A stretch of 64,000 nucleotides of DNA from Cupriavidus metallidurans CH34 (GTDB lineage: Bacteria; Pseudomonadota; Gammaproteobacteria; Burkholderiales; Burkholderiaceae), in assembly GCF_000196015.1 (NCBI RefSeq), contig NC_007974.2, positions 1,302,001 to 1,366,000 of the forward strand, written 5' to 3'. The first letter of the stretch is position 1, and each line of letters begins with the position of its first letter. This document shows positions 27,804-54,623 of the stretch, one piece after another. The notes under the pieces were generated by a model. It ran no database searches. It was not told where the DNA came from and saw only the letters and a program-made list of their open reading frames with translations. The position numbers were made by a program, and so were the translations under genes.

Positions 27804-28679
27804 CTACTGCCGGATCGTCGCCGCCTGCATCAGATTGCCGACCACATCCGCCCTGGCCTTGTTGAGCGCCACAATATGCAGTTGCCTGCGGATGTCGTCT
27901 TTGACGTCGTCAAATGCCGGGACCTGCGTGGCACGCTTCGCATCGAGCCTGACGATGACACGAAGATTGTCGACCACGACTGGCTCCTGCGTGACCGCAC
28001 CAACCTCCAGATGGGAGACGGCTTCGGCCACGGCTACCGGCACGCCCTGGCTCTTGCCTTCGACCACGGGCACCCGGAACGTGATCCACGGCATCTCGCC
28101 CCCGCCCTCCTTGCTCGACGCCACGCTGTACATCCGGACCAGCTCATCGAAGGACACGCCCGCCCTGAGCTTTTCCAGCACGGTACGGGCGGTCCGATCG
28201 TCCGCCACCGAAATGATGCGGACCTTGTACTCCTCCTTCCCCATCATGCTGACTACCTCGTCATACCGCGCCTTGACCTGCGCATCGGTAATCGGATCGA
28301 GGCGCAGGTTGTCGCGCAGGTAAAGCTCCGCCTCCGCCGACGCCTTCGCGGTGTTGGCGGCCTGCACGACTTCCGGCCTCCGGTCATACCCATCCTTTTC
28401 CGCCGACTGCCGCAGCACTTCGCGCACGATCAGTTCCTGTGTGAAGAACTGGCGCATCTGCGGGGTGTCTGCCTGGCGCGCCACACGCAAGGCGTCGTCG
28501 AGCTGCGTCTGCGCAATCGGCACGCCGTTGACGACGGCGAGCGTTCCGGGCGGCAGGCCTGTGCCCGCCCCGCTCCCGCTGTCATCCGCTGCCTGACATG
28601 GCGCAAGGCACGCAGCGAGCATCAGGCCGAGCGCCAGACGTGCCGGACCTGACAGACGAGACAGGGCAATCGCATTCAT
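27804..28679 (-). CDS. Exported parvulin-type peptidyl-prolyl isomerase
   Basis: A 291-aa periplasmic PPIase related to SurA/PrsA/EpsD. The signal peptide (LALGLMLAACLAPCQAAD) may be a lipobox (AACLAPC is atypical). An N-terminal SurA-like helical part (VVNGVPIAQTQLDDALRVA, then EVLRQSAEKDG) leads to a rotamase domain at about 150-255 (YKVRIISVADDRTARTVLEKLRAGVSFDELVRMYS, VGAVTQEPVV). GGAGG lies upstream of the ATG at 28679. As the last gene of the oxidase-secretion cluster it may fold the giant exported oxidase, as suggested for the PPIase-like gene next to Leptothrix mofA. That parallel is from memory. Confidence 0.85.
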   Translation of the reverse strand: MNAIALSRLSGPARLALGLMLAACLAPCQAADDSGSGAGTGLPPGTLAVVNGVPIAQTQLDDALRVARQADTPQMRQFFTQELIVREVLRQSAEKDGYDRRPEVVQAANTAKASAEAELYLRDNLRLDPITDAQVKARYDEVVSMMGKEEYKVRIISVADDRTARTVLEKLRAGVSFDELVRMYSVASSKEGGGEMPWITFRVPVVEGKSQGVPVAVAEAVSHLEVGAVTQEPVVVDNLRVIVRLDAKRATQVPAFDDVKDDIRRQLHIVALNKARADVVGNLMQAATIRQ

Positions 28680-28731
28680 GGTGGGCCTCCGCATTCGGAC
28701 GACTGGCGCGATGTTCGTGCGCCCGGCGAGA

Positions 28732-29355
28732 TCAGTTCGACGCCATCAGATGGTGGTACGCATGGAGGATCTCGTCCGCCGTCGCGAAACCATCTATCCG
28801 CAGCCAGGGCTTGCCCGGCGCCGCGCGCAGCAGGACCACCGGACTGTGATTCATCTTGTCTTCGTGATAAACGTTGAAGGCCTTCTGGGCGGCAACGCTG
28901 GCCGACACTGCGCCGGTGTAGTGCTGCCACTCCGGGCCCGCGCCGAACTTCGCCGCATATTCCCGCAACCGTCCCGGGGTGTCGTGCTCGGGGTCGATCG
29001 AGATGGAGACCAGATGCACCTTGTCCCGGTCAGGACCCAGTTCCGCCTGAAGCTGTGACAGCGTCTGGCTGATGACCGGACAGATCGACGTGCACGTGGT
29101 GTAGATGAAGGTCAGTACCACGGGCCGGCCATCATCGAGTTCATTGGCCAGCGACACGGCCTGCCCATCGTCACGCACCAGCGTCACCGGCGGCAGGCGA
29201 TAGTCCACCGTGGACGTATGCATCTCCCGTTTCATCTCGTGATGGGAATGCGGATCGTCGGATTCATGACCGACGGCGCCCATCGAGACGCACACGATCA
29301 GCCCAACGGCGGTCACTGCCGCCACTTTGCTCCAACGCTTTGCGTACGCTTTCAT
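28732..29355 (-). CDS. SCO1/SenC-type copper chaperone
   Basis: A 207-aa protein with an N-terminal signal anchor and a thioredoxin-like SCO domain. The copper site CTSICP (Cys88, Cys92) and a later His170 (in MNHSPVVLL) are all present. SCO proteins deliver or reduce copper at periplasmic cuproenzymes, classically the CuA site. A His-rich stretch (HESDDPHSHHE) follows the anchor and may bind metal. GAGGAGGGGACTCCC precedes the ATG at 29355. Within a cluster of multicopper-oxidase-like proteins, a role in metallating them is likely. Confidence 0.9.
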   Translation of the reverse strand: MKAYAKRWSKVAAVTAVGLIVCVSMGAVGHESDDPHSHHEMKREMHTSTVDYRLPPVTLVRDDGQAVSLANELDDGRPVVLTFIYTTCTSICPVISQTLSQLQAELGPDRDKVHLVSISIDPEHDTPGRLREYAAKFGAGPEWQHYTGAVSASVAAQKAFNVYHEDKMNHSPVVLLRAAPGKPWLRIDGFATADEILHAYHHLMASN

Positions 29356-29449
29356 GGGAGTCCCCTCCTCGACGTTTCGCTGACGCGCACCCTGGCGGGT
29401 GTTTACTCCATTGTGGGCAAGCAGCGCCAAGGGCGGCATGGGGAACCCT

Positions 29450-29466
29450 CCCCTAACTGGGATAGG
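29450..29466. promoter_or_regulatory. CCCTAA-type palindromic site upstream of the SCO gene
   Basis: CCCCTAACTGGGATAGG lies about 95 bp upstream of the SCO gene, in the 131-bp gap after the cytochrome gene. It shares the CCCCTAA half-site with the site at 57166-57180. Possible response-regulator binding site; inferred. Confidence 0.35.
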
Positions 29467-29486
29467 TAAACCTCCGCCCGGCGCGC

Positions 29487-31112
29487 CTAGGGCACCGTCC
29501 AGTCCCCATCCGCCGCAACCCGGGTGCCATCCGGCCCCGAGAAGCGGACCATGTAGCCGCCCTTGGATGCGAATCGCTGCCCTGGCGCGAGAGTCAGGCG
29601 CGGATAGTATCCGGTGATGACGCGGCGCTCGATCATGTCCTCCACGCGCTCCACGAGGTAGTCGCGCTGGAAGGTATCGGCCATATGGTTCAGGGTCTCG
29701 GCTAGCAGCCCGCAAGCCAGGAACGTATCCGCCTGCACCTGTTCGGCCACCAGCGGGATGCGCCGGATCGTGAACCATCCGAGCGCATAGTCGACGCGCA
29801 CACGCCGGCGTTCGGGCAAGTCGACGGGATACGCCAACTCGGTGACCGCTCGCCAGCCCGCAGGGACAGGCGTATGTTCCAGCCCGCCCATCAGCCCCGA
29901 CATCAGCACGGTCGTTCCGGGCGGTGGGCTGCCGCCAAGCGCCGCCACATCCGGCGGGCGCAGCCAAAGCACCAGTACGTTGCCCTTTGGCACCTTGCGC
30001 AGTGCGCTGGCGATGCTCTCGTGCGCCTTCAGCACGCGGTTCGACACCGTAACGCCTGCGGGCATGAGCGCTGCCGCGAGCGCCCTGGCGCCAGCGTCAC
30101 CGCTATCGCCCTCGCGGTATACCTGAAGCACCGGGCCAACTGCCTTGCCGTCCTGGCCGCGCAGGATCGACCGTGCCATCAACTGCGCCTCAAGGGTGAC
30201 GCCATTGGAAAAGTAGAGCGAATAGAACCCCTTGCCCTCCTCGGCGGGCACCTCGACATTGGGAAACAGGCACGGCACGGCTGCCTGCTCGCAGAACGCG
30301 TGCACCGGCGCCCAGTTCGAACCGCCAAGCCCGGATACCACGGCGAGCACGGGCTGTTCCGCGAGATGTTTCTGCAATTGCGCCTGCCACGTGGAGGGCG
30401 CACCGCTCAGTTCCCAGACATGCAGCTGCCAGCGCCGGTTCACCATGAACATCATGCTGCGCGACGCGCGCAGACGCGGCGTGGGGCCCAGCGGGAACGC
30501 GTTCTTGTCAGCGAAATAGTGCTGCAACACGTCCAGCATTCCCTGGCGTTTGACCGGGTCCGCGTCTGGCGTGATGATCGTGGCGAAGTGCAGCATGGTC
30601 CCATCGACGCCGGGCAGCGTGCGTGCGTCAAGGCGCTTCAAAAAGCCGATCAGCGCCGCCATATCGGCATCGTCCAATGCGAAATGCGGCATCAGGTAGC
30701 TCAGTGGCCGGCCTTCCGAGTCGAGCCCGCTGCGGATGGCCCGTGCCAGCGTAGCCTCCGTGTAGGGCTCGCGGTCGATACGGATGCCATCGACAAATGG
30801 CAGGTCGAGATCGTCGGGATTAGTTGCGCGCGGGTGAAAGAGATACCTGCCCGTAATCGGGGGAATCGCCGTCAGGCCGGCACGCGCGCCGAGCCCGCTG
30901 CGCCGGTGGCAGTTCATGCAGGCGGCGGCCTGGCCCTCCATGCGCATCCCGCCATCGCGGATGGCCTGAAGCGGCTCGCCCGAGGCCAGCGTGCCCTGCC
31001 GGAAAATCCGCTCGCCAGCGTCTGGCGGCGGGTCGGCACGGACTAGGCCCGCCAGCAATAGCAGCGCCAGCCACGCGGCAATCCGCCAGAGTCGGCAAGC
31101 AAGCGGGTTCAT
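29487..31112 (-). CDS. Cytochrome c fused to a periplasmic-binding-like domain
   Basis: A 541-aa exported protein. A signal peptide (residues 1-26) is followed by a class I cytochrome c domain with one haem site CMNCH (65-69) and a likely Met ligand in SYLMPHF. About residues 175-500 look like a type 1 periplasmic-binding (leucine-binding-like) domain: AVVSGLGGSNWAPVHAFCEQAAVPCLFPNVEVP and YSLYFSNGVTLEAQLMARSI. The fusion suggests an electron-transfer protein with a ligand-sensing or docking module. The start overlaps the preceding LolA-like gene by ATGA. A haem-binding protein accompanies mofA in Leptothrix, as I recall. Confidence 0.85.
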   Translation of the reverse strand: MNPLACRLWRIAAWLALLLLAGLVRADPPPDAGERIFRQGTLASGEPLQAIRDGGMRMEGQAAACMNCHRRSGLGARAGLTAIPPITGRYLFHPRATNPDDLDLPFVDGIRIDREPYTEATLARAIRSGLDSEGRPLSYLMPHFALDDADMAALIGFLKRLDARTLPGVDGTMLHFATIITPDADPVKRQGMLDVLQHYFADKNAFPLGPTPRLRASRSMMFMVNRRWQLHVWELSGAPSTWQAQLQKHLAEQPVLAVVSGLGGSNWAPVHAFCEQAAVPCLFPNVEVPAEEGKGFYSLYFSNGVTLEAQLMARSILRGQDGKAVGPVLQVYREGDSGDAGARALAAALMPAGVTVSNRVLKAHESIASALRKVPKGNVLVLWLRPPDVAALGGSPPPGTTVLMSGLMGGLEHTPVPAGWRAVTELAYPVDLPERRRVRVDYALGWFTIRRIPLVAEQVQADTFLACGLLAETLNHMADTFQRDYLVERVEDMIERRVITGYYPRLTLAPGQRFASKGGYMVRFSGPDGTRVAADGDWTVP

Positions 31113-31957
31113 TGCATCGGGGCCGGGCGGAAGCCGTATGGGGGCGCCGCAGTGGGTCGTGCCGCTTCTTCGCTGCCACGCATCGACGGCGGCTTGGCGA
31201 ACATGATGTCTTGCAATGGCGGATTCATCTGGATGCGATCGATCACGAGCCGTTCCCCGGCACGCGCCATGCCCTCGCCGCTCTCAATGACGAATGGCAG
31301 GCGCACGCCGTCCACCTCCCGGTAATCGCGGTAGTACACGGTCACCAGATGCGCCTGTCCGGCGGCGTTGCGGGACTGCCGCTCCGACTTGATATCGAGA
31401 TAGGTCTGCGCGTCGATCCACTCGCGGCGCGAACTGCCGGAGGGCAAGGTGACACCGAGCCGGTAGGCCTTGTGCCCGTCAACCTCGTCAGTGCCCTCCA
31501 TCACCACGGTAATGCCCTTGGCCTCGCAGTCGATCAGCGGCCCGTCGATGACCTGCTCGTCGTGCGCGAACTTGTCCTCTTCCGGCGTGTAGGGCGTCAG
31601 GCTCGGCTTGCCCTGCGCCGAACGCACCTTCCAGCCGCGATTGCCGTCGAAGATCCGCACGGCCTGTTGACTGCCGCCGCGAATCTCGAAGCGCGTCTTG
31701 TTGGGCCGCTTGAGGGCCAGCACGAACTGGGCGGGGGCCTGCGCGCTTTCCACGTGCCCGACCCATACCATGGCATCGATCTTGCGCCAGGCTTCCGCGC
31801 CGCCAATGGCCTTGCCATGCTTCTCGACGACCTCGGCAGCGGTAGGCTCCGCCGCGCAGCCCTGCGCGCCTGCCAGTACCAGCAGACAGGCGGCCAGCGC
31901 GTTACCAGCCATCGCCCTGGTGCCCATGGTCCGGGCGCGTGTTGCTATGGTGCTCAT
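31109..31957 (-). CDS. LolA-like exported protein, paralogue 2
   Basis: A 282-aa protein with an N-terminal signal (LAACLLVLAGAQGC; possibly a lipoprotein, though the lipobox is imperfect) and a LolA/outer-membrane-lipoprotein-sorting-like beta domain (KHGKAIGGAEAWRKIDAMVWVG, KRPNKTRFEIRGGSQQAVRIFDGNRGWKV, REWIDAQTYLDIKSE). It ends in a Pro-rich tail. It is about the same layout as the product of the next upstream gene (31973-32752), so the pair looks like a tandem duplication. Possible role in chaperoning or localising an exported partner; no direct evidence. Confidence 0.78.
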   Translation of the reverse strand: MSTIATRARTMGTRAMAGNALAACLLVLAGAQGCAAEPTAAEVVEKHGKAIGGAEAWRKIDAMVWVGHVESAQAPAQFVLALKRPNKTRFEIRGGSQQAVRIFDGNRGWKVRSAQGKPSLTPYTPEEDKFAHDEQVIDGPLIDCEAKGITVVMEGTDEVDGHKAYRLGVTLPSGSSRREWIDAQTYLDIKSERQSRNAAGQAHLVTVYYRDYREVDGVRLPFVIESGEGMARAGERLVIDRIQMNPPLQDIMFAKPPSMRGSEEAARPTAAPPYGFRPAPMQ

Positions 31958-31972
31958 GGCGTTCGCCCCCTG

Positions 31973-32752
31973 CTACTGGCCTGCGGCTCCCGGAACGGCA
32001 GCCTGCGGCTTGGCGAACGCCGCATCGTCTACCGGCGGATTCACGGCCACTCGCTGGATCTTCATCTTGTGCCCCGGCTTGACGCCAACAACCACGGTTT
32101 CCACGACGTGCGGCATCATCAGGCCGTTCTCCTTGCCGTATTCGCGGTAGTAGATCGCAACCGGACGCGGCCGTCCGTCCATCACGCGGGGTTCGCCGTC
32201 CATCTTCACCTCCAGGAAGCTCGACGCATCTACCCACACCCTGCGTTGCACCCTATCCTTCGTCGTCAGCCTGAGCCGGTAAGCACGATGGCCTTCCACG
32301 GTGTCAGTGCCTTCAAGTTCGACGGTAGACCCCTTGCGGGCGTAATCGACCAGCGGCCCGTCGAGCTCAGCCCATTCGGCCGCTGCCTTTGCCTCGGCGG
32401 GCGTGAACGGTTCGGCGCCGTCCCGCCCCAGGAACGGCCGGACCTTCCACCCTTGCGTGCCGTCGTAGACCTGCACCGCCGTCTGGTCCTGGAACCGCAA
32501 CTCGAATCGCACCTTGTGGGGGCGCTTCATGGTGGCCACGAACGGTAGCTTCGTCTCCTTCTTGCCACCCGCGTCCAGTTCGCCCGACATGGTCAGCGTA
32601 TTGACCGCCCGCCAGGCCGCAAGGCCGCCCCGCGCGGCCACGTTCCGGTCGACGATCTGGGCGGCGGACATCCGGCCTGCATCGGCGGCGGCGGCCGCGA
32701 CCGGTGTCACGAGCACGGCCAGACCCAGCGCCACAAAGAGATTTCGGTTCAT
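31973..32752 (-). CDS. LolA-like exported protein, paralogue 1
   Basis: A 259-aa exported protein (signal MNRNLFVALGLAVLVTPVAAAA) with the same domain as 31109-31957: VDRNVAARGGLAAWRAVNTLTMSG, KRPHKVRFELRFQDQTAVQVYDGTQGWKV, RRVWVDASSFLEVKMDGEP, and a shared C-terminal MNPP/VNPPVDDAAFAKP segment. GGGGAGGAGAAACCC precedes the ATG. Domains of this type carry lipophilic cargo in LolA, or act as envelope scaffolds. Two copies beside a giant secreted protein suggest a specific envelope role. Confidence 0.78.
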   Translation of the reverse strand: MNRNLFVALGLAVLVTPVAAAAADAGRMSAAQIVDRNVAARGGLAAWRAVNTLTMSGELDAGGKKETKLPFVATMKRPHKVRFELRFQDQTAVQVYDGTQGWKVRPFLGRDGAEPFTPAEAKAAAEWAELDGPLVDYARKGSTVELEGTDTVEGHRAYRLRLTTKDRVQRRVWVDASSFLEVKMDGEPRVMDGRPRPVAIYYREYGKENGLMMPHVVETVVVGVKPGHKMKIQRVAVNPPVDDAAFAKPQAAVPGAAGQ

Positions 32753-32800
32753 GGGTTTCTCCTCCCCGGTTCAGGCGTCGACTTGTCCGAGCCCGTCCAC

Positions 32801-33289: not shown

Positions 33290-33301
33290 TTCGTTGCCGC
33301 C

Positions 33302-43047: not shown

Positions 43048-43057
43048 GGCATCTCTC

Positions 43058-44783: not shown

Positions 44784-45395
44784 TCAACCGCCCGGCCGCA
44801 ATGGCGCGAATGGAGAGGTCCTGTTCCCGTTGCCCGGCACTGCCCCTTTCCCACCGCGCGTGTTCGGCGCTGGCGTCTGCGGCCCGGGGTTCGTGCCCGG
44901 AATGCCGCGGCCAGGAGGCACATAGAAAAACTGCCATTCGGCGTAGGTCTTGGCGTTCGCGAACTCGGCGTAGCGTCTGGGAAACCTCGCCCGTTTGATC
45001 GTCTCGGCGGTCGAGCTGCTGTAGACGCCGTAGATCCGGCCACCTTCGATCAACAGTTTCCAGTCGGCCTTGCCCGTCATCGGGTCCGGATAGGCGCGTC
45101 GCAAGTGGTGCAACGGCACGGGAAACCGTTTGTCCTCGAGCAGATCGTCGATGGATGCCGGAAGCGCGCGTCCCACCAGGTAATAGCTCTGGATCGCCTG
45201 CCTGTACTGTTCGCCAACGAAGAGCAGTTCTTCTTCCATCTGTCGCTGTCGTTGCAGCGCCCACACGTCCAGCGCCCCTTCCATCGCGATCGCCATCAGC
45301 AACAGCGCGATCAAAAGCGACAGCAGGACCAGCCCCTGCCCTCGCCTGCGACGAAGGCATCCACGCACCAGACGCGCACTAGGCATCGGGCTCAT
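44784..45395 (-). CDS. Atypical pseudopilin-like protein
   Basis: A 203-aa protein with a pilin-like N-terminus (RRRRGQGLVLLSLLIALLLMAIAMEGALD): a basic leader then a long hydrophobic helix, but lacking the canonical Phe and Glu5 of type IV pilins. The soluble domain (AIQSYYLVGRALPASIDDLLEDKRFP, RRAYPDPMTGKADWKLL) is like GspG/PulG-type pseudopilins. The end is Pro/Gly-rich. It is last of the secretion genes; its start overlaps the preceding stop by ATGA. Atypical leaders may mean a minor pseudopilin or one not processed in the usual way. Confidence 0.7.
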   Translation of the reverse strand: MSPMPSARLVRGCLRRRRGQGLVLLSLLIALLLMAIAMEGALDVWALQRQRQMEEELLFVGEQYRQAIQSYYLVGRALPASIDDLLEDKRFPVPLHHLRRAYPDPMTGKADWKLLIEGGRIYGVYSSSTAETIKRARFPRRYAEFANAKTYAEWQFFYVPPGRGIPGTNPGPQTPAPNTRGGKGAVPGNGNRTSPFAPLRPGG

Positions 45396-45838
45396 TGGCT
45401 TGGCCGTTCGGCTGCAGCAGTTGCCGCGGAAGCTCCCCCGGCTGCGGTAGTCGTGGCAGCGGCGGGCTTTACCGCCTCCGGCGCGCTGGCGGGAGCCAGG
45501 TCGTACACGCCGGGTTTCTCGCCGTCTGGCGATGCAACGACCACCCAGTCGCGGCTGCCGCTGACCGGATCGTCGGGCACATTGCGCAGGTAGCGCCGGG
45601 TCACCAGCTCGTCGAGTGTCTCGGGATAGCGCCCGTTGTCGCCGTAGAACTTGTCAATGGCATCGCGCATCACCGCAAGGTTCTGCCGCTGAACCTGCTC
45701 CTTGCCACGGTCGATCGCGTGAAGGTAGCGTGGCAGCGCGATGGTCAGCAGCAATCCAAGGATCGCCATCACGACCACGATCTCGATCAGCGTGAATCCT
45801 CGCCGCCACGTGAAAGCCGGAAATCGCATGGCCGTCAC
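45392..45838 (-). CDS. Pseudopilin (GspG/PulG-like)
   Basis: A 148-aa pseudopilin with a canonical prepilin peptidase site (RRGFTLIEIVVVMAILGLLLTIALP). The domain (GKEQVQRQNLAVMRDAIDKFYGDNGRYPETLDELVTRRYLRNVPDDPVSGSRDWVVV) matches GspG-type major pseudopilins. The Ala/Thr-rich tail (AAATTTAAGGASAATAAAE) is unusual. It begins with GTG (45838) overlapping the previous stop, so translation is coupled to the upstream pseudopilin. Part of the T2SS-like unit. Confidence 0.85.
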   Translation of the reverse strand: MTAMRFPAFTWRRGFTLIEIVVVMAILGLLLTIALPRYLHAIDRGKEQVQRQNLAVMRDAIDKFYGDNGRYPETLDELVTRRYLRNVPDDPVSGSRDWVVVASPDGEKPGVYDLAPASAPEAVKPAAATTTAAGGASAATAAAERPSQ

Positions 45839-46365
45839 CAGTCCTTGTACGGAATGCCGTTGAGGCCAACGCGCGTGGACGTCGACGACACATCATAGAC
45901 ATCGGCACTGCCCGCCTGGCTGCCGTCTGGCGCCTTGCCGTAGGCGCGGACATTCCACGTACTCTCGGGTGGCACATCGACATCGCCCGCATAGAACGGA
46001 TCGCGCGGCACCCGTCGCAGAAACTGCAGCAGCCCACCCTTCGGGTCCTTGGCATCGACGACGCCAGTCGCCAGCACGTCGAGCGTTGGCGGATAGCCGG
46101 ACATATCTGCCTTCTTCTCGATGGAGCCGAAGTCGCTGGCCTCCTTGTACGCATCCAGCGCTGTTCTGATCTCGCGCAGGGCAACGCGGAGCTCCTGCTC
46201 CTTCTGGCGCTGCACAATCAGCTCGGAGAACGGCAACACCGCCAGCGCCACGATGCCCACCAGCGCCAGGGTCACCACCAGCTCGATCAGCGTGAAGCCG
46301 CGCCCCCCGCATCCCGTCAGCGGGCCGCGACGCGCAATGCAGAGAGATCCGGGCCTGGCATTCAT
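45835..46365 (-). CDS. Pseudopilin (GspG-like) with a processed leader
   Basis: A 176-aa pseudopilin: leader ends CGGRGFTLIELVVTLALVGIVALAVLP, the full class III site with Glu5. The mature domain includes SELIVQRQKEQELRVALREIRTALDAYKEASD and RRVPRDPFYAG. The start at 46365 lies 3 bp after the gspD stop. It is third from the end of the secretion operon and coupled by overlap to the next pseudopilin. Together the cluster has four pseudopilin-like proteins (GspG and these three), fewer than a classical T2SS but all of one type. Confidence 0.85.
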   Translation of the reverse strand: MNARPGSLCIARRGPLTGCGGRGFTLIELVVTLALVGIVALAVLPFSELIVQRQKEQELRVALREIRTALDAYKEASDFGSIEKKADMSGYPPTLDVLATGVVDAKDPKGGLLQFLRRVPRDPFYAGDVDVPPESTWNVRAYGKAPDGSQAGSADVYDVSSTSTRVGLNGIPYKDW

Positions 46366-46368
46366 GGT

Positions 46369-48573
46369 TCAGGGGCTGCCGCCGGGGATCGAGTACAGCG
46401 GATTGTCGCTGGGGATGTCCGTCGGCTGCCGGGGCATTGGCGCGGGCGGCGTCGGTGGAATCAGCTCCACCTGCACCGGACCACGTGGCGCTGGCGGCGG
46501 CGCCGTATTTTCGGCCGAGCCGTCGGCGTTGCCAGACGCCGGCACGGGTGGTGGCGGCGCCGGCTCGGCTGTGCCGGCTGGCGCTGCCTGCCCCTGCGGC
46601 ACCGCAGGCGTGCCCGAGAAGCGACCGTTATAGGGAGCCGGTGGCGGCGTGGTCCGCATCGGCGGCGGAGGCTGCCCGAATGCACTCTTTGGCGTTGCTG
46701 CAGCGCTGCCGCTTGCGGCCGGTGGCGGCCCCATGGTTCCGCCACCTACCTGTCCAGGCTTGACCGGCGTATAGGGCAACGCAGGCGCGCCGGATGCCGT
46801 CGATGCGACGGGACGGCTCGGGTCCAGCCGCAATTGTTCGGTGCGGACATTGGTATCGGTGCCGGACCAGAGCTCGCGCGTGTCGCTATCCATCGTCAGT
46901 TGCGGGCGTACGATATGCGGCGTGATCTGCAGCACGATCTCGGTCTTGACGTGGTCACCATTGTGGTCGGAGAACAGCCTCCCAACCACCGGCAACTGCC
47001 CCAGCCCGGGCACCTTGTCGGCAGACGTCCGATCCTGATCCGAGATCAGCCCGCCGAGTATCTGCGTTTCGCCGTCCCGCAGTCGCAGGCTCGTGGACGC
47101 GCTGCGCGTGCCAATCTGGTAAGCCAGCGAACTCAGGCCCGTCTGCGCGTTGCCGCTCTGGATCGTCTTGGTGATATTGCTGACCTCCAGGGCCAGTTTG
47201 ATGCCCACGTCGTTGTCGCGATACACCTGGGGCTCCACTTCCAGCTTGATGCCGACATCCAGATACTGGATCGTCTGGGTGAACGATGGTCCGCTCGTGC
47301 TGGGCGTGCTGGAACTGGAGATCACCGGCACCTTGTCGCCAATCAGGATCCTTGCCTTCTCCTTGTTTCGCGTACGAATCCGCGGGCTGGCGAGCAGATT
47401 GGCATCGGTATCGGTCAGCTTGAAGTTGGCTGTCGCCGACAACGGACTCACTTCAAGCTCGTTGGCGGTCAGGTGGTGCAGCACGCCCCATGTCGTCGCA
47501 GAGGCTGGTGTGGCCATCGTGAACGAATTTGGCCATGCGATGCCAAGGTCGGTCAGACGCTCGCGCGACACCTCCAGAACCTGGACTTCGAGCATGACTT
47601 CCGGCTCCGGCAGGTCCTGCGCGGCGATCATCTGCTCCGCCACGCGAATCGTGTCTGGCGTACCGCGAATGGTCACGGTGTTCGCGCGTTCGTCGACCAC
47701 GACTTCCTTGATCTTCAGCAGACTCTTCAGCAGCGACTGGACCTGCTTGGAGTCGACATTCGACAGCTGGAATGTGCGGACCTTGAGCTCCTGATACTCC
47801 TGCTGCTTGGCGGGCGTGGCTGGGTAGATGAACAGCGTGTTGGCGTTCAGCACCTTCTTGTCGAGCTGGCTTTGCAGCAGGATCAGATCCACCGCGTCCT
47901 CGATTGCCGCATTGGTCACGAAAATCGTGGTCTTGAGATCGGCACGCACATCCCGGTCGAAGATGACATTGAGACCGGAGGTACGGGATAGTGCTTCGAA
48001 CACCATGCGGATGTTGGCATCGCGGAACTGCAGGGTCACCGGCGTGCGCATGATGGACCCCGCCGCGCGCTGTTCCTCACGCGCAAGCCGCAGCAGACGG
48101 CGTTGCTCCTCGATACGCTGGGCCAGTTGTCTGCCGGCAATGCTGTTCGGATTCTCGGCAAGCACGTAGCGGACGCGCTCCGCTGCAATATCGTAGGAGC
48201 CACGATCGAACATACGCTCCGCTTCCTGCAGGATGGCCGCGTCGCGCCAGTCACGCTGCAGCGCCGCGCCAAGAATGCGCGCGCGCTCGTTGGTGGGGTC
48301 CAGCTGGTTCGCCGCGCCAAGCAGCGGAACGGCGTCCTGGTACTGGCCTGCCGCGCGTAGTCGCTCCGCCTCCTCGAGCAGTGCATTGACCTGCCTGTCC
48401 CGCTCGCGCAGCGCGCCGACGATCTGCTCTGCATTGGTGCTCGGGTCCGGCGGGAATCGCTGGTACATGGGCGAGCAACCGGCAAGGCAGGTTCCCAACA
48501 GGATGACGCCGATGCAGATGGGCTGCGCTTTGCATCTCGCCCGGATCAGCCTGGGCCCACGTGAGGTATGCAT
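46369..48573 (-). CDS. gspD: Type II secretion secretin (GspD/MshL-like)
   Basis: A 734-aa outer-membrane secretin lipoprotein (LLGTCLAGC, Cys33). It has TPR-like helices at about 60-150, N-domains (VTLQFRDANIRMVFEALSRTSGLNVIFD; VRTFQLSNVDSKQVQSLLKSLL), and a secretin domain at about 330-570 (VPVISSS, QYLDVGIKLEVEPQVY, SLRLRDGETQILGGLISD, KTEIVLQITPHIVRP). The final 150 residues are Pro/Gly/Ala-rich and disordered. This is the outer-membrane channel of the machine. GAGGGG precedes the ATG. The TPR-like start and the partner genes are more like MSHA/type IV pilus secretins than classical GspD. Confidence 0.92.
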   Translation of the reverse strand: MHTSRGPRLIRARCKAQPICIGVILLGTCLAGCSPMYQRFPPDPSTNAEQIVGALRERDRQVNALLEEAERLRAAGQYQDAVPLLGAANQLDPTNERARILGAALQRDWRDAAILQEAERMFDRGSYDIAAERVRYVLAENPNSIAGRQLAQRIEEQRRLLRLAREEQRAAGSIMRTPVTLQFRDANIRMVFEALSRTSGLNVIFDRDVRADLKTTIFVTNAAIEDAVDLILLQSQLDKKVLNANTLFIYPATPAKQQEYQELKVRTFQLSNVDSKQVQSLLKSLLKIKEVVVDERANTVTIRGTPDTIRVAEQMIAAQDLPEPEVMLEVQVLEVSRERLTDLGIAWPNSFTMATPASATTWGVLHHLTANELEVSPLSATANFKLTDTDANLLASPRIRTRNKEKARILIGDKVPVISSSSTPSTSGPSFTQTIQYLDVGIKLEVEPQVYRDNDVGIKLALEVSNITKTIQSGNAQTGLSSLAYQIGTRSASTSLRLRDGETQILGGLISDQDRTSADKVPGLGQLPVVGRLFSDHNGDHVKTEIVLQITPHIVRPQLTMDSDTRELWSGTDTNVRTEQLRLDPSRPVASTASGAPALPYTPVKPGQVGGGTMGPPPAASGSAAATPKSAFGQPPPPMRTTPPPAPYNGRFSGTPAVPQGQAAPAGTAEPAPPPPVPASGNADGSAENTAPPPAPRGPVQVELIPPTPPAPMPRQPTDIPSDNPLYSIPGGSP

Positions 48574-49182
48574 TTATTTCCCCTCGCTCTGGGTGGGCAG
48601 GACCTGCTTCATATTGAGCGGCAGGTAGGTAAACGTGATGCTCTCGGTCGCAATCGCGTCGATACGGTACTGCCCGTCGATCACGTCGCCGCGAGAGACA
48701 ATCAACAGGCGGTCGCCGTTGCCCAGGAAAATCTGCGGCTTGGGCGTATTGCCGTCCAGCGCACCAAGGAAGCTGAACGGCAGGGGCGGCGGCGTTGGCG
48801 GTGGCTCGACGACCGGTTCCGGAGGCGGCGGTGGGGGCGGCGGCGGCAACCACGATGACGCCGTGAAGGGATCGTGCCCCGGCTCGGCGGACATCGGCTT
48901 GCGCAGCTTCTCCAGCTGCTCGCGTGGTGCGGCATGGGTCTGCGTCTGGGCCACGGCGGCGCTGGCGGGTGGGTGCTTCGCCGCGGAATGATGCGCGTGA
49001 CTGGCCGCTGCGGCATCACTGGAGGCGCCGTGCCGCGTCATCGTGCCCCAGGAAGGGCCGGTATTGATCGCTGCAAGTGCCGGGTTGGTGCGCGGATCGG
49101 GCATCACCGACCAGGAAACGACGGCGGCCAACACGAAGCCAGTCGTGCCGATCAGGATCTTTCGGGCGAGATCGTGCGTCAT
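48574..49182 (-). CDS. PilP/GspC-like inner membrane protein
   Basis: A 202-aa protein with one N-terminal membrane helix (KILIGTTGFVLAAVVSWSV), a long flexible Ala/His/Pro region (including PPPPPPPPPEPVVEPPPTPPPLP), and a small C-terminal HR-like beta domain (FSFLGALDGNTPKPQIFLGNGDRLLIVSRGDVIDGQYRIDAIATESITFTYLPL). This matches PilP/GspC inner-membrane partners that contact the secretin. It ends immediately before gspD. Order PilM-N-O-P-secretin is that of type IV pilus assembly operons. Confidence 0.8.
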   Translation of the reverse strand: MTHDLARKILIGTTGFVLAAVVSWSVMPDPRTNPALAAINTGPSWGTMTRHGASSDAAAASHAHHSAAKHPPASAAVAQTQTHAAPREQLEKLRKPMSAEPGHDPFTASSWLPPPPPPPPPEPVVEPPPTPPPLPFSFLGALDGNTPKPQIFLGNGDRLLIVSRGDVIDGQYRIDAIATESITFTYLPLNMKQVLPTQSEGK

Positions 49183-49745
49183 GGCCGCTCCGTCCGATAG
49201 ATCAAGGCAAAGCGGATACGCGCCTCGATCTGATTGCCATCCACGGCCGGCCGCTCGACGTGAATCTCCTGCAAGGCCGCGTTAGGCACACTGTTCAGCA
49301 CCGACGCGATAAAGCGCCGAATCGCGCCGTACTGATCCTTGACCGGCAGCGTGACCTGATAGCGCACGAAGCGCGCGCCCGGCTCGGCACTGAACTGGTA
49401 CTGGGCCGAGCCGAGCGTCAGGTGGCTCTCCCGCGCCTGGGCAAAGATGACGGTCAGGTCTTCGCCGCTGCCGGAGAAGGTCGAGAATAGTTCGGGGAAT
49501 TTGTCCGGCGCGCTGATATCGGCCTTTGCCTGCGCCGCCTCGGCGGCACGAATTCCTGCCACCTTGCGGGCCTGCCATGTCTGCGCATGAAGTGCCTTCG
49601 TGTCCGCCATCAGGTCGGGCACCATTGACCAGACCACAATCGCCGCCGCTAGAACGGCGATGCCAAGCAGCCCTGGGGTCCCCAGTGTCCGCCAGAGCGC
49701 GAAACGGATCGTCAGCAGGCGATCGCGTACCTGGGCGGCTGTCAT
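49179..49745 (-). CDS. PilO/GspM-like inner membrane protein
   Basis: A 188-aa bitopic protein with one helix (GLLGIAVLAAAIVVWSMVP) and a periplasmic ferredoxin-like part (FARESHLTLGSAQYQF, RFVRYQVTLPVKDQYGAIRRFIASVLNSVPNAALQEIHVERP), characteristic of PilO and GspM. Its ATGA overlaps both neighbours' stops (with 49182 and with the upstream gene), so the set is translated as one unit. Its likely partner is the PilN-like protein from the gene before. Confidence 0.8.
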   Translation of the reverse strand: MTAAQVRDRLLTIRFALWRTLGTPGLLGIAVLAAAIVVWSMVPDLMADTKALHAQTWQARKVAGIRAAEAAQAKADISAPDKFPELFSTFSGSGEDLTVIFAQARESHLTLGSAQYQFSAEPGARFVRYQVTLPVKDQYGAIRRFIASVLNSVPNAALQEIHVERPAVDGNQIEARIRFALIYRTERP

Positions 49746-50272
49746 GGCTTTCTCCAGACAGCGGCAACCTGAAACCGTATTGGCGTGCCAGGCACATTGG
49801 TTTCCACCAGATGCGCGTTCAGGACCGCCTCGCGCAACAGCGCGCTACTCTGCAGGTACTTGAGATAGGCGATCATCGCATCGGCGTCCTTGGCTTCCGC
49901 GACGATCCGAATCTGCCCCTGCGCCGGATTCTGGTCGATGCCGATCAGCGCCACATCGTGCTCGGGATAGTTCTCGACAATCGACAACAGGTCCTGCCAG
50001 GGCACCGTCAGCTCCCGCAGGATCGCCTGAGACTGCTTCTCGGCCAGCTTCGCGGCTGGCGTGGAGGCAACAGCGATGGTGTGCCTCGCCGGGCTGGCAC
50101 GGCGCATGACGGTTTCGAGATCCGTTCGCGCGATCTCGTTGCTCTCGCCCGCCCGCCAAAGCTCCCACACCCCCGACCCAAGCAGGATGCCGGACACGAG
50201 CAACAGTACGATGCCAGCCAGTGGCGGCTGCCAGCGTGCCGCGCAGAAGTCGATGTCCAGGCGCGGCTTCAT
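49742..50272 (-). CDS. PilN/GspL-C-like inner membrane protein
   Basis: A 176-aa protein with one N-terminal helix (PPLAGIVLLLVSGILLGSG) and a soluble domain (VPWQDLLSIVENYPEHDVALIGIDQNPAQGQIRIVAEAKDADAMIAYLKYLQ) of the PilN type. The ATG at 50272 overlaps the preceding stop; a longer frame to 50428 only overlaps that gene. The protein is expected to form an inner-membrane platform with the PilM-, PilO- and PilP-like neighbours, linking the ATPase to the secretin. Confidence 0.8.
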   Translation of the reverse strand: MKPRLDIDFCAARWQPPLAGIVLLLVSGILLGSGVWELWRAGESNEIARTDLETVMRRASPARHTIAVASTPAAKLAEKQSQAILRELTVPWQDLLSIVENYPEHDVALIGIDQNPAQGQIRIVAEAKDADAMIAYLKYLQSSALLREAVLNAHLVETNVPGTPIRFQVAAVWRKP

Positions 50273-51183
50273 GATGCAAGCCCCATCAGGCCTAACGCCG
50301 GCGAGGCATACGTGGCATCCATCCCCGTCGCCCGATGCACCTTGGCGAAGCAGCGCTCGAACGGTGCCGTGTCCACCGCATTGCCGCTGAGAAAGACCGT
50401 GCACGTACTCGCACTCTCGTCCGACCACCTCTCCAACATCGTGCGGGCCTGATCGGCGAGCCGCGTATCGCTAGCCGTCTCGCCGGGAAACAATCGCTGC
50501 GCGTCATAGGCAACCCAGTGGCTGCCATCGGTCATGGCCACCTGCAGCAGATCGTCCGCTACCACGACGATCATGCCCGGAAGATCCGGCATATCGCGCT
50601 GGGTCCGGTCGAGCAGTCGGGGCAGCCTGGGAGACAGGCACGTCACCTTGATGTCGGCTTCGGCACAGGTTTCCTGGATGCCTGTCAGCAATGATCTCGG
50701 CATCGCGCTGGCAAAGACAGCGTCACCGCCAGCTTGCACTGCGATGGCGATCGCCAGACTCACACCCTCAAGGCCGAACGCATCCGAGAAGTACGCGCGC
50801 GCAACCTCTTCCACGTCCCGCTTGCGCATACTGCGGAAATCGCCACGCAGCACCCCATGATTCACCCAGAAGTCGTCCAGTACGATCGCAGCATGGTGTC
50901 TGCGCCCCGCCAAAGGCGGGTTGGACGGGGAATGCGCCTCGGCAAGTGCCATGCGCAGGCTATCGAGCGCGCCCTCCTCGTTATACCAGCGGTCGGACGG
51001 CGTCTCGACGCTGCGGTGCGAAACGATAGCCAGCGGCGCCGTGAGGCCGCCCAGCGACAGCGCCTTGACTTCGCGTCGCTGCAACAGCGTCCACAGACGC
51101 TCGGCCCTGGACTGGCACACGCCGACCGCGACATCGCACGTGCCAATGCCGATGGCAAGACGGTTACTCGGAGATCGTGACAC
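50269..51183 (-). CDS. PilM/GspL-like cytoplasmic platform protein
   Basis: A 304-aa protein without membrane helices, starting at a GTG (51183) with AGGAG 8 nt before it and overlapping the end of gspE by 20 nt. The actin-like PilM/GspL pattern is only weak (RLAIGIGTCDVAVGV; LPGMIVVVADDLLQVAMTDGSHWVAYDAQRL, FLSGNAVDTAPFERCF). Its place between the ATPase and the PilN-like protein supports this call. It would attach the ATPase to the membrane platform. Earlier in-frame starts to 51288 would deeply overlap gspE and are rejected. Confidence 0.65.
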   Translation of the reverse strand: MSRSPSNRLAIGIGTCDVAVGVCQSRAERLWTLLQRREVKALSLGGLTAPLAIVSHRSVETPSDRWYNEEGALDSLRMALAEAHSPSNPPLAGRRHHAAIVLDDFWVNHGVLRGDFRSMRKRDVEEVARAYFSDAFGLEGVSLAIAIAVQAGGDAVFASAMPRSLLTGIQETCAEADIKVTCLSPRLPRLLDRTQRDMPDLPGMIVVVADDLLQVAMTDGSHWVAYDAQRLFPGETASDTRLADQARTMLERWSDESASTCTVFLSGNAVDTAPFERCFAKVHRATGMDATYASPALGLMGLAS

Positions 51184-52870
51184 GATTGATCTCCTCGAGC
51201 GTTGTTTCCCCTGCGGCCGCCATCTCGATCGCGGCCTTGCGCAGCGTTTGCATACCTTGCCGCAGTGCCACGCTCTTGATGCGCGCAAGTGGCGCGCGCT
51301 CCGAGAGCAGCGCCCGGAGTTCGTCGTTCATCCGCAGCGCTTCCGCAATCGCGCGCCGGCCACGATAGCCACTGCCACGGCAGGCCGCGCAACCCAGTCC
51401 GCGCCGGAAGCGGAACCCGTCCGCCATGTCCGGGTCGATGCCAGATCGTGCCAGCAAGTCCCGATCACCGGCTTCCTCGACCACGCAGCCATCGCAACAC
51501 TTGCGCACCAGCCGTTGGGCGACCACGCCATTCAGCGCCGAGACGAAGCTGTATGGATCCACCCCCATGTTCGTGAAACGACCGATCACGTCGAACACGT
51601 TGTTCGCGTGGACGGTCGTGAACACCTGGTGTCCGGTCAGCGCCGCCTGCACCGCGATCTGCGCGGTCTCCGCATCGCGGATCTCGCCCACCATGATCTT
51701 GTCCGGGTCATGACGCAGGATGGAGCGCAGGCCACGCGCGAAGGTCAGGCCCTTGGCCTCGTTGACCGGGATCTGCAGGATGTCCCCGAGCTGGTACTCG
51801 ACCGGGTCCTCGATGGTCACGATCTTGTCCAGACCATCGTTTATCTCGGTCAGGATGGCGTACAGCGTCGTGGTCTTGCCGCTACCGGTTGGGCCGGTCA
51901 CCAGCAACATGCCATAAGGCATTGACGCCACCGACCGCATGAAACCGGTATCGGCAGCCTGAAAACCCAGTGTTTCGAGCGTCAGGCCCTGCGCGGACTG
52001 CGATAGCTGGTAGCGGTCCAGAATGCGCAGGACGGCGTCCTCCCCGAACAGGTTCGGCATGATCGATACGCGGAAGTCGATCTCCCGCCCGGCATACTGC
52101 GCCTTGAAGCGACCATCCTGCGGCACGCGCCGCTCGGCGATATCGAGTTCCGAGATGACCTTGACACGCGACAGCACCTGATCGGCGGGTGCGCGTCCGT
52201 CGACCCTGCCCACCACCGCCAGCACGCCGTCGATGCGGCACTTGATCACCAGGCCGTTAGCGCGGCATTCCAGATGGATATCGCTGGCCTGCATCTTCAA
52301 GGCGTCATAGATGGTCGAATTGAGCAACCTGACGACCGAGCTGTCGTCATTGCTGATGCCCTGCAGACTCAGCGCCAGCGCGGACGATTCCGCCGCGCGG
52401 TGCTCCAGTTCCTCGAAGGCAACGGTATCCAGCGCGTGGACGTCTTTCTCACGCGCCGCAAGATAGGCCGTCACGTCGCCGACGGTCGCCAGGCGCCATT
52501 CGTAACGCACGTGCGGCCGGGCACGCATCCGCTGGTCAACCCGCCCGCGCGACTGCGCATCGAGCGGGTCCGCGATCACGAACACGAGCCCGTCCCCGGA
52601 CCGGAAGCAAACACACAGGCGTGCCACGGCCTCGACGAATGGAATGATCTCGAAGTCTGGCTCCATCTCCTGCAGGTCGCGAATGCCGATGGGCTCCATC
52701 CGGAAGGCGCTTGCCAGCTCGGCAAGGCTCTCGTCCGCGCCCACGCCGCTCTGGGACATATACGCTTCCAGCGCGCGGGTGCCCGACCCGTAGGACGCCG
52801 CGAGTTCGCGCAGCGTTGCGCGGAGGGTGGTCCCCCCATGCTGCTCCGGATGCGTGCCGATCGGGTCCAT
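51164..52870 (-). CDS. gspE: Type II secretion/pilus assembly ATPase (GspE/PilB)
   Basis: A 568-aa AAA-type secretion ATPase: an N-terminal GspE_N/MshEN-like part (residues 20-150), then the ATPase core with Walker A GPTGSGKTTTLY (about 325), Asp box DPVEYQLGDILQ, Walker B IMVGEIRDAETA, His box TTVHANN, and a zinc-like tetracysteine CCDGC ... CAAC. Such ATPases drive pseudopilus assembly. Its stop overlaps the PilM-like gene, and it lies 6 bp after the gspF stop. All catalytic motifs are intact. Confidence 0.95.
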   Translation of the reverse strand: MDPIGTHPEQHGGTTLRATLRELAASYGSGTRALEAYMSQSGVGADESLAELASAFRMEPIGIRDLQEMEPDFEIIPFVEAVARLCVCFRSGDGLVFVIADPLDAQSRGRVDQRMRARPHVRYEWRLATVGDVTAYLAAREKDVHALDTVAFEELEHRAAESSALALSLQGISNDDSSVVRLLNSTIYDALKMQASDIHLECRANGLVIKCRIDGVLAVVGRVDGRAPADQVLSRVKVISELDIAERRVPQDGRFKAQYAGREIDFRVSIMPNLFGEDAVLRILDRYQLSQSAQGLTLETLGFQAADTGFMRSVASMPYGMLLVTGPTGSGKTTTLYAILTEINDGLDKIVTIEDPVEYQLGDILQIPVNEAKGLTFARGLRSILRHDPDKIMVGEIRDAETAQIAVQAALTGHQVFTTVHANNVFDVIGRFTNMGVDPYSFVSALNGVVAQRLVRKCCDGCVVEEAGDRDLLARSGIDPDMADGFRFRRGLGCAACRGSGYRGRRAIAEALRMNDELRALLSERAPLARIKSVALRQGMQTLRKAAIEMAAAGETTLEEINRVTISE

Positions 52871-52876
52871 GATGGT

Positions 52877-54079
52877 CTACTGAACGCTGGAGGCGAGCTC
52901 GAAGATCGGCATGTACATCAGCACGACAATGCCGCCGATCACGACGCCGATGAAAATCATCATCACCGGCTCGATCAACCGCGATATCAGGTCGATGGCG
53001 CGCGAGACATGCGACTCCTGGAATCCGGCAATCTTGTCCAGCACCGGGCCGAGGCCACCGGTCTTCTCCGCGACGGTCAGCAAACGAGAAGTGATGGCAT
53101 TGGCCAATCCACACTGCTGGAAGGCTTCCGAAATCTTCCTGCCGCTGCGTACCGCGTGCAGTGCCGTGCTCAGCGCGGCGCGATCGGATTGGCTCACGAG
53201 CCCTTGCGACAGCTCGAAGGCGTGTACCGCGGGAATCCCTCCTTCCACCAGCATCGCCGACGTTCGGAAAAATTGGGATTGGCGATAGATGCGGAAATGC
53301 GGCCCGATGCCAGGCAGCGCAAGCAGCCGGTCGGCCAGCAGATCGCGTATGGACTGACGCTGTAGCGCAACGATGCCGGCCAGAAGCAGTATGGCGAATG
53401 TCAATGCGATGGCTGAGCCGTGCCGGTGCACCGCGCCGCCCCACATCATCAACCAGCGCGACATCAACGGCAGTTCGCGGCCGCTGTGCTCGAGCAGCGC
53501 GGCGAACCGTGGCACCACGAACGCCAGCAGGAACAGGACTACCGCCATCCCCACCACCAGCAGAACCGACGGATAGATGGCTGCAGAGATCACGCGCGCG
53601 CGCAACGCCTGCAGCGTGGCACTGTTGCGTGAGTAGCGCCGCAGGCTGTCCGCGAGACCACCGGTCTGTTCGCTGGCCTTGACGCAGGCGATCAGCACAT
53701 CGGGAAACACGTTCGCGGCGTTCACCATGGCTGCGGATAGCGAATGGCCTTCCTCAAGCTGCCGGAGCAGATTCCCGTAGACACGTGCCGACGCCTCCCT
53801 GCGATCGTTGCCGCCCAGCGTGCGCAAGGCGTCGATCACGCCAACACCGGCATCGAGCAGTGCGGCAAGCTCCCGCGCGAACAGTTCCACGTCGAACCGC
53901 ACACCCGGCAGCACGCGCCATCCGCGGAGACTGTTCGTGGTCGTGACGGTGGAACGGACGGATGCCACGCGCAGGCCTCGGGATTCCGCCTGCGTCACCA
54001 CATTGGCAGCGGACTCGCCGTCCAGATAGATGGTCTTGACCCGGCCACCGCTGTCGAACACGCACAACATGTAGGTCAC
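52877..54079 (-). CDS. gspF: Type II secretion/pilus platform protein GspF
   Basis: A 400-aa GspF/PilC-type inner membrane protein: N-terminal cytoplasmic segment, GspF domain 1 (FARELAALLDAGVGVIDALRTLGG ... EQTGGLADSLRRY), a membrane pair (SAAIYPSVLLVVGMAVVLFLLAFVVPRFA), domain 2 (FFRTSAMLVEGGIPAVHAFELSQG, TVAEKTGGLGPVLDKIAGF) and a C-terminal helix (IFIGVVIGGIVVLMYMPIF). A GTG at 54079 with GGAG upstream is the best start; a later ATG four codons on is possible. It is second gene of the operon. Confidence 0.93.
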   Translation of the reverse strand: MTYMLCVFDSGGRVKTIYLDGESAANVVTQAESRGLRVASVRSTVTTTNSLRGWRVLPGVRFDVELFARELAALLDAGVGVIDALRTLGGNDRREASARVYGNLLRQLEEGHSLSAAMVNAANVFPDVLIACVKASEQTGGLADSLRRYSRNSATLQALRARVISAAIYPSVLLVVGMAVVLFLLAFVVPRFAALLEHSGRELPLMSRWLMMWGGAVHRHGSAIALTFAILLLAGIVALQRQSIRDLLADRLLALPGIGPHFRIYRQSQFFRTSAMLVEGGIPAVHAFELSQGLVSQSDRAALSTALHAVRSGRKISEAFQQCGLANAITSRLLTVAEKTGGLGPVLDKIAGFQESHVSRAIDLISRLIEPVMMIFIGVVIGGIVVLMYMPIFELASSVQ

Positions 54080-54122
54080 CGTCGTTCTCCACGTCAGGCC
54101 GGCGGGCCGGCCCCTCACGCTT

Positions 54123-54623
54123 TCACCACGAAGTAATGTCTGAGTTCTCTCCCGTCCCTCCCGGCTGTCCGTCCTTGCCAAACGACATGAGGTCGTAGTC
54201 GCCATGCTCCCCCGGCGACCTGTACTGATAGGGCCGATCCCATGGGTCCAGCGGCACACGCTTCTGCAGATAGGGGCCATTCCAGCGCGGCGCGTTCTGG
54301 GGCCGGGTGACCAGCGCGTCGAGACGCTCCTCGGTAGTGGGGTATGCCCCCACGTCGAGGCGATATGCGTCCAGCGCCTTGCTCAACGAGTCGACCTGCG
54401 CCTTGGCCACGTTGGTGTTCGACTTGCCGATCTGTTCGAAGTAGCGCGGCGCCACCAGCCCGGCCAGCAAGCCGATGATGACCATGACGACAAGCAACTC
54501 GAGCAACGTGAACCCTGGCGGGCATCCCACCGCCAGCCGATATGGGCGATGATCCGGGAAGCGGCGCGTTACCCATCGCCATCGGCGCTGCGCCAGCCGC
54601 TTCGGTTGCGTGTCGATACGCAT
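54123..54623 (-). CDS. gspG: Major pseudopilin GspG
   Basis: A 166-aa GspG: leader ends PPGFTLLELLVVMVIIGLLAGLVAP (class III site). The C-terminal domain is the classical GspG form (SLSKALDAYRLDVGAYPTTEERLDALVTRPQNAPRWNGPYLQKRVPLDPWDRPYQYRSPGEHGDYDLMSFGKDGQPGGTGENSDI) with the calcium-binding loop at the end. The leader is long (about 37 residues before the cleavage site). GGAAGGG lies just upstream of the ATG at 54623. This is the first gene of the secretion run, divergent from the kinase gene. Confidence 0.94.
   Translation of the reverse strand: MRIDTQPKRLAQRRWRWVTRRFPDHRPYRLAVGCPPGFTLLELLVVMVIIGLLAGLVAPRYFEQIGKSNTNVAKAQVDSLSKALDAYRLDVGAYPTTEERLDALVTRPQNAPRWNGPYLQKRVPLDPWDRPYQYRSPGEHGDYDLMSFGKDGQPGGTGENSDITSW

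Follow-up and report, generated by a model that had tools for sequence, protein, structure and literature searches.

In the iron oxidizer Sideroxydans lithotrophicus ES-1, the cupredoxin cluster Slit_1812–1818 (Keffer et al. 2025, PMC12016527; He et al. 2017, PMC5566968) encodes proteins that increase on magnetite (Keffer et al. 2025, PMC12016527). Two of them were assigned canonical oxidase motifs and the larger one was not, and similar clusters were noted in Paraburkholderia, Ralstonia and others, so that the trio itself, in Sideroxydans and other Burkholderiales, is already published (PMC12016527, as far as considered here). In Geobacter, an atypical type II secretion system (T2SS; Oxp/Pul) is required to secrete the multicopper protein OmpB (Mehta et al. 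2006, as cited in PMC3543383). Here we describe a locus of Cupriavidus metallidurans CH34, in a 64,000-nt stretch of contig NC_007974.2 (RefSeq assembly GCF_000196015.1, positions 1,302,001 to 1,366,000; hereafter the window), in which genes for two multicopper-oxidase-type proteins (MCO1 and MCO2) and a giant adhesin-like protein stand beside those of a T2SS-like machine. These genes rather probably encode a three-chain, six-domain oxidase whose trinuclear copper site would lie between chains and which would be exported by the neighbouring T2SS.

Compared by published description rather than by alignment with the ES-1 sequences, the block in the window has the Sideroxydans-type layout, i.e. 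a tandem of cupredoxin proteins, of which two carry oxidase motifs and the third is large and adhesin- and polysaccharide-lyase-like, along with SCO1 and a cytochrome. Unlike here, neither secretion genes nor a split of the trinuclear ligands are described in the portions of the two Sideroxydans accounts considered (PMC12016527, PMC5566968); within those portions, the main text of the former uses neither 'secretion' nor 'pilus'. In the open-licence literature we found no paper on a split or heteromeric multicopper oxidase, and none related to C. metallidurans, multicopper oxidases and type II secretion combined. A sequence-only reading of the window had called an attached private secretion machine unusual. 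These Sideroxydans accounts describe no linked exporter; a T2SS for a multicopper protein is known from Geobacter. If export proceeds as predicted, a type II system would serve a multicopper protein in both cases, the Geobacter one acting on insoluble metal oxides; the Geobacter pul genes, compared by description only, lie beside cell-division and DNA-uptake genes and not beside the oxidase (PMC3543383, in part).

The copper ligands are split between proteins. We scanned species genomes for relatives of MCO2, confirmed 150 places and kept the 80 best. These loci derive mainly from Burkholderiales and Acidobacteria, and further from metagenome-assembled genomes (MAGs) labelled Delta-, Gamma-, Beta- or plain Proteobacteria and from one member of the Actinobacteria. 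In the window, MCO1 carries the motifs HTVHFHG and HCHITPPEHLQMGM and a degenerate second domain. Its domain 1 (D1) matches by profile, HxxHxHG and HCHxxxxEH included, domain 1 of 3g5w (Nitrosomonas europaea) and 2zwn (metagenome), which we take to be type C two-domain multicopper oxidases, and the protein has no HxH besides the two in this domain. MCO2, conversely, has a degenerate first domain and a second domain (D2) with HPFHEH and HSH and without Cys. Across the 80 loci, HTxHFHG was present in 78 MCO1 genes, the remaining two being truncated at a contig end, and HCHxxxxEHLQMGM was present in all 80; HPxHEH and HSHNERE were present in 79 MCO2 genes (the miss being a broken frame), and HCH never occurred in MCO2. 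The aligned ligand positions in MCO1 D2 and MCO2 D1 are taken by other residues, and each protein carries half of the eight trinuclear histidines. This division is kept in every complete gene of the 80 loci, and is unchanged in a divergent copy outside the family Burkholderiaceae (48–54% identity). Beyond the expected ligands, further histidines are invariant (MCO2 H309, H311 and H336; MCO1 H322 and H329; alignment numbering) and possibly form a substrate-metal site.

MCO1 adjoins MCO2 in 80/80 loci, all of which were found through MCO2, and a match to the giant gene lies downstream of MCO2 in 79; in the exception, L046, the sole sequence resembling the giant (26%) is MCO2 itself, at the end of the available stretch. 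In the window, the giant is devoid of HxH throughout its length, and likewise of HC and CH pairs. HCH never occurs in giants of the 80 loci, and HxH within the first 430 residues was seen in four of the 80 giant-labelled frames, one of them the L046 frame that is MCO2. The N-terminus is modelled as a two-domain cupredoxin fold, followed by cadherin/Ig, SdrD-like and beta-helix parts and a choice-of-anchor Q C-terminus. Two-domain cupredoxin units are spread over three genes; judged from sequence, these units are paralogous and the ligands are split between the first two. The giant as the oxidase was rejected for its lack of HxH and HC/CH pairs, and the 'giant copper oxidase' of the sequence-only reading gives way to MCO1 plus MCO2 as the predicted enzyme.

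MCO1 and MCO2 might instead be separate homo-oligomeric enzymes or copper proteins with unusual copper sites, with the giant an adhesin that merely shares ancestry and no cluster in common, a possibility that we regard as unlikely. Keffer et al. give canonical multicopper oxidase motifs to each of the two Sideroxydans proteins (PMC12016527, in part), both proteins hold the extra invariant histidines, and the three-chain complex is something that we infer. What speaks for a shared cluster is that each protein has half of the trinuclear histidines, that the counterpart positions in the other domain of each are replaced, and that the two genes are adjacent at every locus and co-occur without exception in the genome comparison below (18/18 versus 0/62).

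Set beside known enzymes, the predicted oxidase falls between classes. It shares with 3g5w and 2zwn two cupredoxin domains per chain and, in MCO1, a type 1 copper site with one trinuclear half in domain 1. Those enzymes are trimers in which both halves lie on one chain type, the second in domain 2 of the same chain; here that half lies on MCO2, and the third protein is copper-free. Like MnxG, MofA/OmpB and ceruloplasmin, the predicted complex has six cupredoxin domains overall and one trinuclear site. Six-domain oxidases, however, consist of one chain and hold the trinuclear site between domains 1/6 or 2/3; in MnxG/MofA/OmpB, type 1 copper is in domain 2, and domains 2 and 3 enclose the trinuclear site (PMC3600357, in part). 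Here three chains would be involved, the predicted type 1 site is in the first domain of MCO1, and the trinuclear halves are in MCO1 D1 and MCO2 D2, i.e. domains 1 and 4 in gene order. A simple three-way cut of MofA/MnxG was rejected, since the ligand layout, compared by description only, differs (PMC3600357, in part). MofA/OmpB clusters likewise have a MofC-like cytochrome, SCO1 and sometimes a PPIase (peptidyl-prolyl isomerase) nearby (PMC5566968, in part), and the resemblance to MofA/MnxG enzymes that had been suggested before extends to these accessory genes but not to the layout of the enzyme.

The exporter tracks the oxidase within the family. MCO2 is found in 19 of 249 family genomes including this one, representing 7 of 25 genera; it is absent from the 20 same-genus genomes listed, yet two Cupriavidus basilensis loci have it. 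For co-occurrence we considered 80 family genomes, 18 with MCO2 and 62 of the 230 without. A secretin orthologue (at least 66% identity) was present in 17/18 MCO2-positive and 0/62 MCO2-negative genomes (Fisher 1.8e-16), and MCO1 in 18/18 versus 0/62 (Fisher 2.8e-18), statistics that are inflated because the genomes share ancestry. The only MCO2-positive genome without the secretin (G284) has a stop codon in its MCO2 match. MCO2 and the secretin lie on one contig in 10 of the 17 genomes and on separate contigs of draft assemblies in the other 7. In an order-wide sample of 399 genomes, MCO2 occurred in two besides this one, both outside the family, one of which has nearly the whole module in a single run. 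Co-occurrence in other genomes, a check suggested with the sequence-only reading, is borne out within the family.

Physical linkage was assessed for 37 loci in 36 genomes (40 of the 80 loci were taken and three left out), a set partly overlapping that used for co-occurrence (e.g. G014 and G150 are the same place). In 29/36 oxidase genomes, MCO2 has a secretin relative no more than 29 kb away, against a chance expectation of 2.7 computed for 35 kb either side of MCO2. Of the 29 linked secretins, 25 are at least 41% identical to that of the window and four, all acidobacterial, 31–33%. The MCO2–secretin gap is ~3–4 kb, with the block upstream, in C. basilensis, Trinickia symbiotica, Pandoraea and two MAGs (a gap shared by two acidobacteria whose secretin is lone and divergent), and ~21–29 kb, with the block downstream, in Paraburkholderia, Burkholderia, Trinickia terrae and Collimonas; other layouts have gaps of 15–18 kb. 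As these classes include both orientations, gene order was rearranged while the two blocks stayed together. In four of the seven unlinked genomes, the contig breaks off ~17 kb or less from MCO2, in the direction in which relatives have the secretion block. Co-occurrence and linkage, as read from genome sequences, strengthen the earlier grouping of a private exporter with the oxidase within the family, though outside it there are exceptions, among them G446 and the acidobacteria described below.

Two further features of these neighbourhoods were noted. Several draft contigs end ~14–17 kb downstream of MCO2 (G070, G154, G166, G205, G231, G235, L009, L011, L017 and L036), which may point to a repeat or mobile element at that place. 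Some acidobacterial and MAG genomes (G030, G033, G027 and G029) hold two to five MCO2 copies, and the trio therefore expanded in them.

With respect to its identity, the machine has the T2SS hallmarks GspE, GspF, a GspG-type pseudopilin and a secretin, assigned by Pfam or, for GspG, by translation and gene order; no Pfam match to GspC, GspL or GspM was found among the genes of the block in the window. The secretin scores below the cut-offs of all nine NCBIfam models matched, with 183.3 bits for GspD (cut-off 351.35), 164.7 for PilQ (284.35) and 109.3 for MshL (250.2), missing the type IVa pilus and MSHA cut-offs as well. Elsewhere, the genome encodes a canonical GspD, a PilQ and two more secretins below cut-offs. 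Because of these scores and of the canonical GspD and PilQ elsewhere, the block represents an additional, atypical system. Pseudopilins A and B carry the N_methyl motif and score best, though below its cut-off, with the NCBIfam GspG model; the third of the three pseudopilins named earlier, protein C, has no Pfam match. The earlier label 'PilM/N/O/P-like' fares unevenly: PilN is weakly backed by Pfam (12 of its 14 orthologues match PF05137 at E ≤ 1, with 6e-4 as the best value; single orthologues give weak GspL_C and T2SSM hits), PilO and PilP hardly so, and PilM by position alone. Profile searches with the PilO-like and PilN-like alignments against the PDB returned nothing meaningful.

Given the PilM/N/O/P-type layout, which is reminiscent of type IV pili, and the canonical GspD elsewhere in the genome, the secretion genes could be a type IV-filament-like machine that is a mere neighbour, the oxidase using the housekeeping T2SS or remaining in the periplasm. 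The acidobacterial trio, which lacks the full machine in the stretches compared, would fit this too. Nonetheless, we deem it improbable, as the two blocks are kept together in different arrangements, the secretin orthologue is missing from all 62 oxidase-negative family genomes, and pilins A and B score best, if below cut-off, with the GspG model.

Several observations weigh against a dedicated oxidase–exporter pair of the kind that we favour. On the enzyme side, conservation of the MCO2 HPFHE motif is partly built in, because one of the two scan patterns, WQHPFHE, includes part of it (the other motifs being independent); the MCO2 HPFHEHG region aligns weakly with domain 2 of 3g5w (10.7 bits, i-E 1.2); and the AF2 model of MCO1, which bears on ligand geometry and the inter-chain interface, is poor (mean pLDDT 49.7). 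On the exporter side, the shared ancestry of the genomes inflates the statistics, more distant secretins (38–45%) occur in 4/62 oxidase-negative genomes, and in G446, one of the two MCO2 genomes outside the family, the secretin is on a different contig. G030, with its five copies of MCO2, has no secretin within 29 kb of them; G026 likewise lacks one at this distance, its contig ending ~8 kb downstream of MCO2; and the G035 assembly has no secretin match, its 15-kb contig having three pseudopilin matches before MCO1. Four of the 29 linked genomes are of the lone-secretin acidobacterial kind, and in four acidobacterial neighbourhoods (L098, L099, L100 and L104) the sole match to the secretion proteins of the window, in the stretches compared, is a secretin of 28–30% identity, so the full exporter does not accompany the trio everywhere. 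Finally, some assignments are weak: PF04350 (PilO) matches 3 of 14 orthologues (best 0.057), the PilM-position protein has Pfam matches in 0 of 9 orthologues, the PilP-like protein is backed beyond gene order by a PDB hit of E 0.36, the LolA-like matches are below the Pfam cut-off (20.9 and 18.9 bits versus 30), and the PPIase has no match in the stretches of relatives' neighbourhoods compared.

In L098 (12981–15035) and L099 (11281–13494), a lone secretin gene with a TPR-like N-terminus stands beside MCO1 in divergent orientation, and no GspE or GspF matches were found in the stretches of these two neighbourhoods compared.

The whole run, listed in Table 1, lies on the minus strand, and the genes named in the sequence-only reading are present there, with corrections. 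Its part at 30000–54600 matches the C. metallidurans replicon NZ_CP046333.1 with 100% identity along 24.6 kb. Within the secretion part, neighbouring genes overlap or are almost contiguous, the start codons of GspF and PilM being uncertain; ~210 bases separate pseudopilin C from MCO1, the three cupredoxin genes follow with gaps of 10 and 17 bases, and 549 bases after the giant come the accessory genes. GspE, GspF, the secretin, two pseudopilins, both oxidase proteins, cytochrome c, SCO1 and the PPIase are backed by Pfam. As its genes have family matches and it recurs across several genera in differing arrangements, the block is not a chance assembly. The cytochrome c gene has a single CxxCH and is MofC-like by description; one relative of its product is annotated as an ABC transporter substrate-binding protein. 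Close to the module, Paraburkholderia, Burkholderia, Pandoraea, Trinickia and Collimonas have 55–69% matches to the response regulator, and values are lower elsewhere. Control by sigma-54 was rejected, its near-matches in the window (41) being close to the number expected by chance (38); a promoter and terminator scan of 27600–47000 gave fewer sites than shuffles did, and Rfam (gathering threshold) and tRNA scans of the window were empty.

Table 1. Genes of the oxidase–secretion block and recurrent neighbours (positions in the window)
Feature	Position	Strand	Evidence
GspG-like pseudopilin, first of secretion operon	54123..54623	-	translation with FTLLELLVVMVIIGLLAGL; 55-83% matches beside gspF in relatives
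GspF-like inner-membrane protein	52877..54070 (ORF to 54280)	-	T2SSF E 1e-43; NCBIfam GspF best model, below cut-off
GspE-like ATPase	51164..52870	-	T2SSE E 3e-119
PilM-position protein	50269..51213	-	gene order only
PilN-like protein	49742..50272	-	PF05137 weak, orthologue matches
PilO-like protein (weak)	49179..49745	-	PF04350 in few orthologues; gene order
PilP-like proline-rich protein (weak)	48574..49182	-	gene order; PDB PilP pilot protein
Secretin, weak N-terminal TPR-like match	46369..48573	-	Secretin E 7e-41, Secretin_N, STN
Pseudopilin A	45835..46365	-	N_methyl E 2e-6
Pseudopilin B	45392..45838	-	N_methyl E 7e-8, weak T2SSG
Pseudopilin-position protein C	44784..45395	-	present in every full secretion block inspected
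MCO1	43058..44572	-	Cu-oxidase_3 E 6e-16; predicted type 1 copper domain and half trinuclear site
MCO2	41416..43047	-	Cu-oxidase_3 E 3e-11; predicted other trinuclear half in second domain
Giant, 2698 aa	33302..41398	-	copper-less two-domain cupredoxin N-terminus (model), adhesin-like parts
LolA-like protein 1	31973..32752	-	PF17131 E 3e-4; 37-74% matches in many relatives
LolA-like protein 2	31109..31957	-	PF17131 E 1e-3; relatives
Monohaem cytochrome c, larger C-terminal part	29487..31112	-	Cytochrom_C E 7e-4, CMNCH
SCO1/SenC copper chaperone	28732..29355	-	PF02630 E 4e-22; relatives
PpiC-type PPIase	27804..28679	-	Rotamase_2 E 5e-15
SLT lytic transglycosylase, recurrent neighbour	26934..27719	+	SLT E 4e-30; 41-60% matches in relatives' modules
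PAS histidine kinase, recurrent neighbour	54730..56073	+	HisKA_3, HATPase_c, PAS; relatives 33-53%
LuxR/NarL-type response regulator, recurrent neighbour	56114..56956	-	Response_reg E 3e-29, GerE E 1e-17

The metal tolerance of the host, SCO1 in the block, a presumably bufferin-like operon in the window, and CopA and CueO among the weak NCBIfam matches could together indicate that the system handles copper or confers copper resistance in the periplasm, and does not oxidise metals or phenols outside the cell. This we consider very improbable, for the scores fall far short of the cut-offs (36–40 versus 479 bits for CopA, 15–19 versus 525 bits for CueO), and the linked secretion system and the giant adhesin-like partner point outwards.

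For the three-chain oxidase, we propose the following scheme, in which we infer the complex, its copper, its export and its substrate. MCO1, MCO2 and the giant's N-terminus would be paralogous two-domain subunits of one hetero-oligomeric oxidase with six cupredoxin domains. Judged from the look of their N-termini, they would cross the inner membrane via Sec, fold in the periplasm and be loaded with copper by SCO1 and accessory proteins. Electrons would enter at the type 1 copper of MCO1 domain 1, and the O2-reducing trinuclear cluster would be complete only where this domain meets the second domain of MCO2, with four histidines from either side. These would be MCO1 H182, H184, H224 and H226 (in the numbering of 43058–44566, two below that of the full protein) and MCO2 H331, H333, H509 and H511. 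The giant would contribute a third, copper-free ring subunit and, with its remainder, a surface- or mineral-binding scaffold. Folded complexes would leave through the neighbouring atypical T2SS, under control of the adjacent two-component system, and most likely oxidise phenolics or a metal outside the cell, for instance Fe(II) or Mn(II). For the fuller version, a ceruloplasmin-like ring in three pieces with a copper-free giant scaffold, exported ready-assembled by a T2SS that evolved with the oxidase, we see the case as evenly balanced.

Two regions elsewhere in the window stood out. At 11100–12724 (minus strand), an MbnB/TglH/ChrH enzyme (E 8e-101) is encoded with a DUF2063 partner, and a short Cys-rich secreted open reading frame (ORF) just upstream on the same strand resembles the precursor of a ribosomally synthesized and post-translationally modified peptide (RiPP); we take this operon to be bufferin-like. 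At 14743–18900 and 18681–23612 (both plus strand), two long ORFs of 1385 and 1643 aa overlap, neither with a Pfam match at E ≤ 1e-4, and at least one of them may not be a gene.

If correct, the proposed arrangement would be a new way to build and export a copper-containing oxidase: a trinuclear copper site shared between different proteins, intermediate between two-domain homotrimers and six-domain enzymes like ceruloplasmin, and paired with a secretion system for which genomics allows a guess at the cargo. The arrangement also offers a testable reading for the magnetite-induced cupredoxins of an iron oxidizer, in which the two oxidase-motif proteins would be halves of one enzyme, and the system occurs in a cultured bacterium, C. 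metallidurans.

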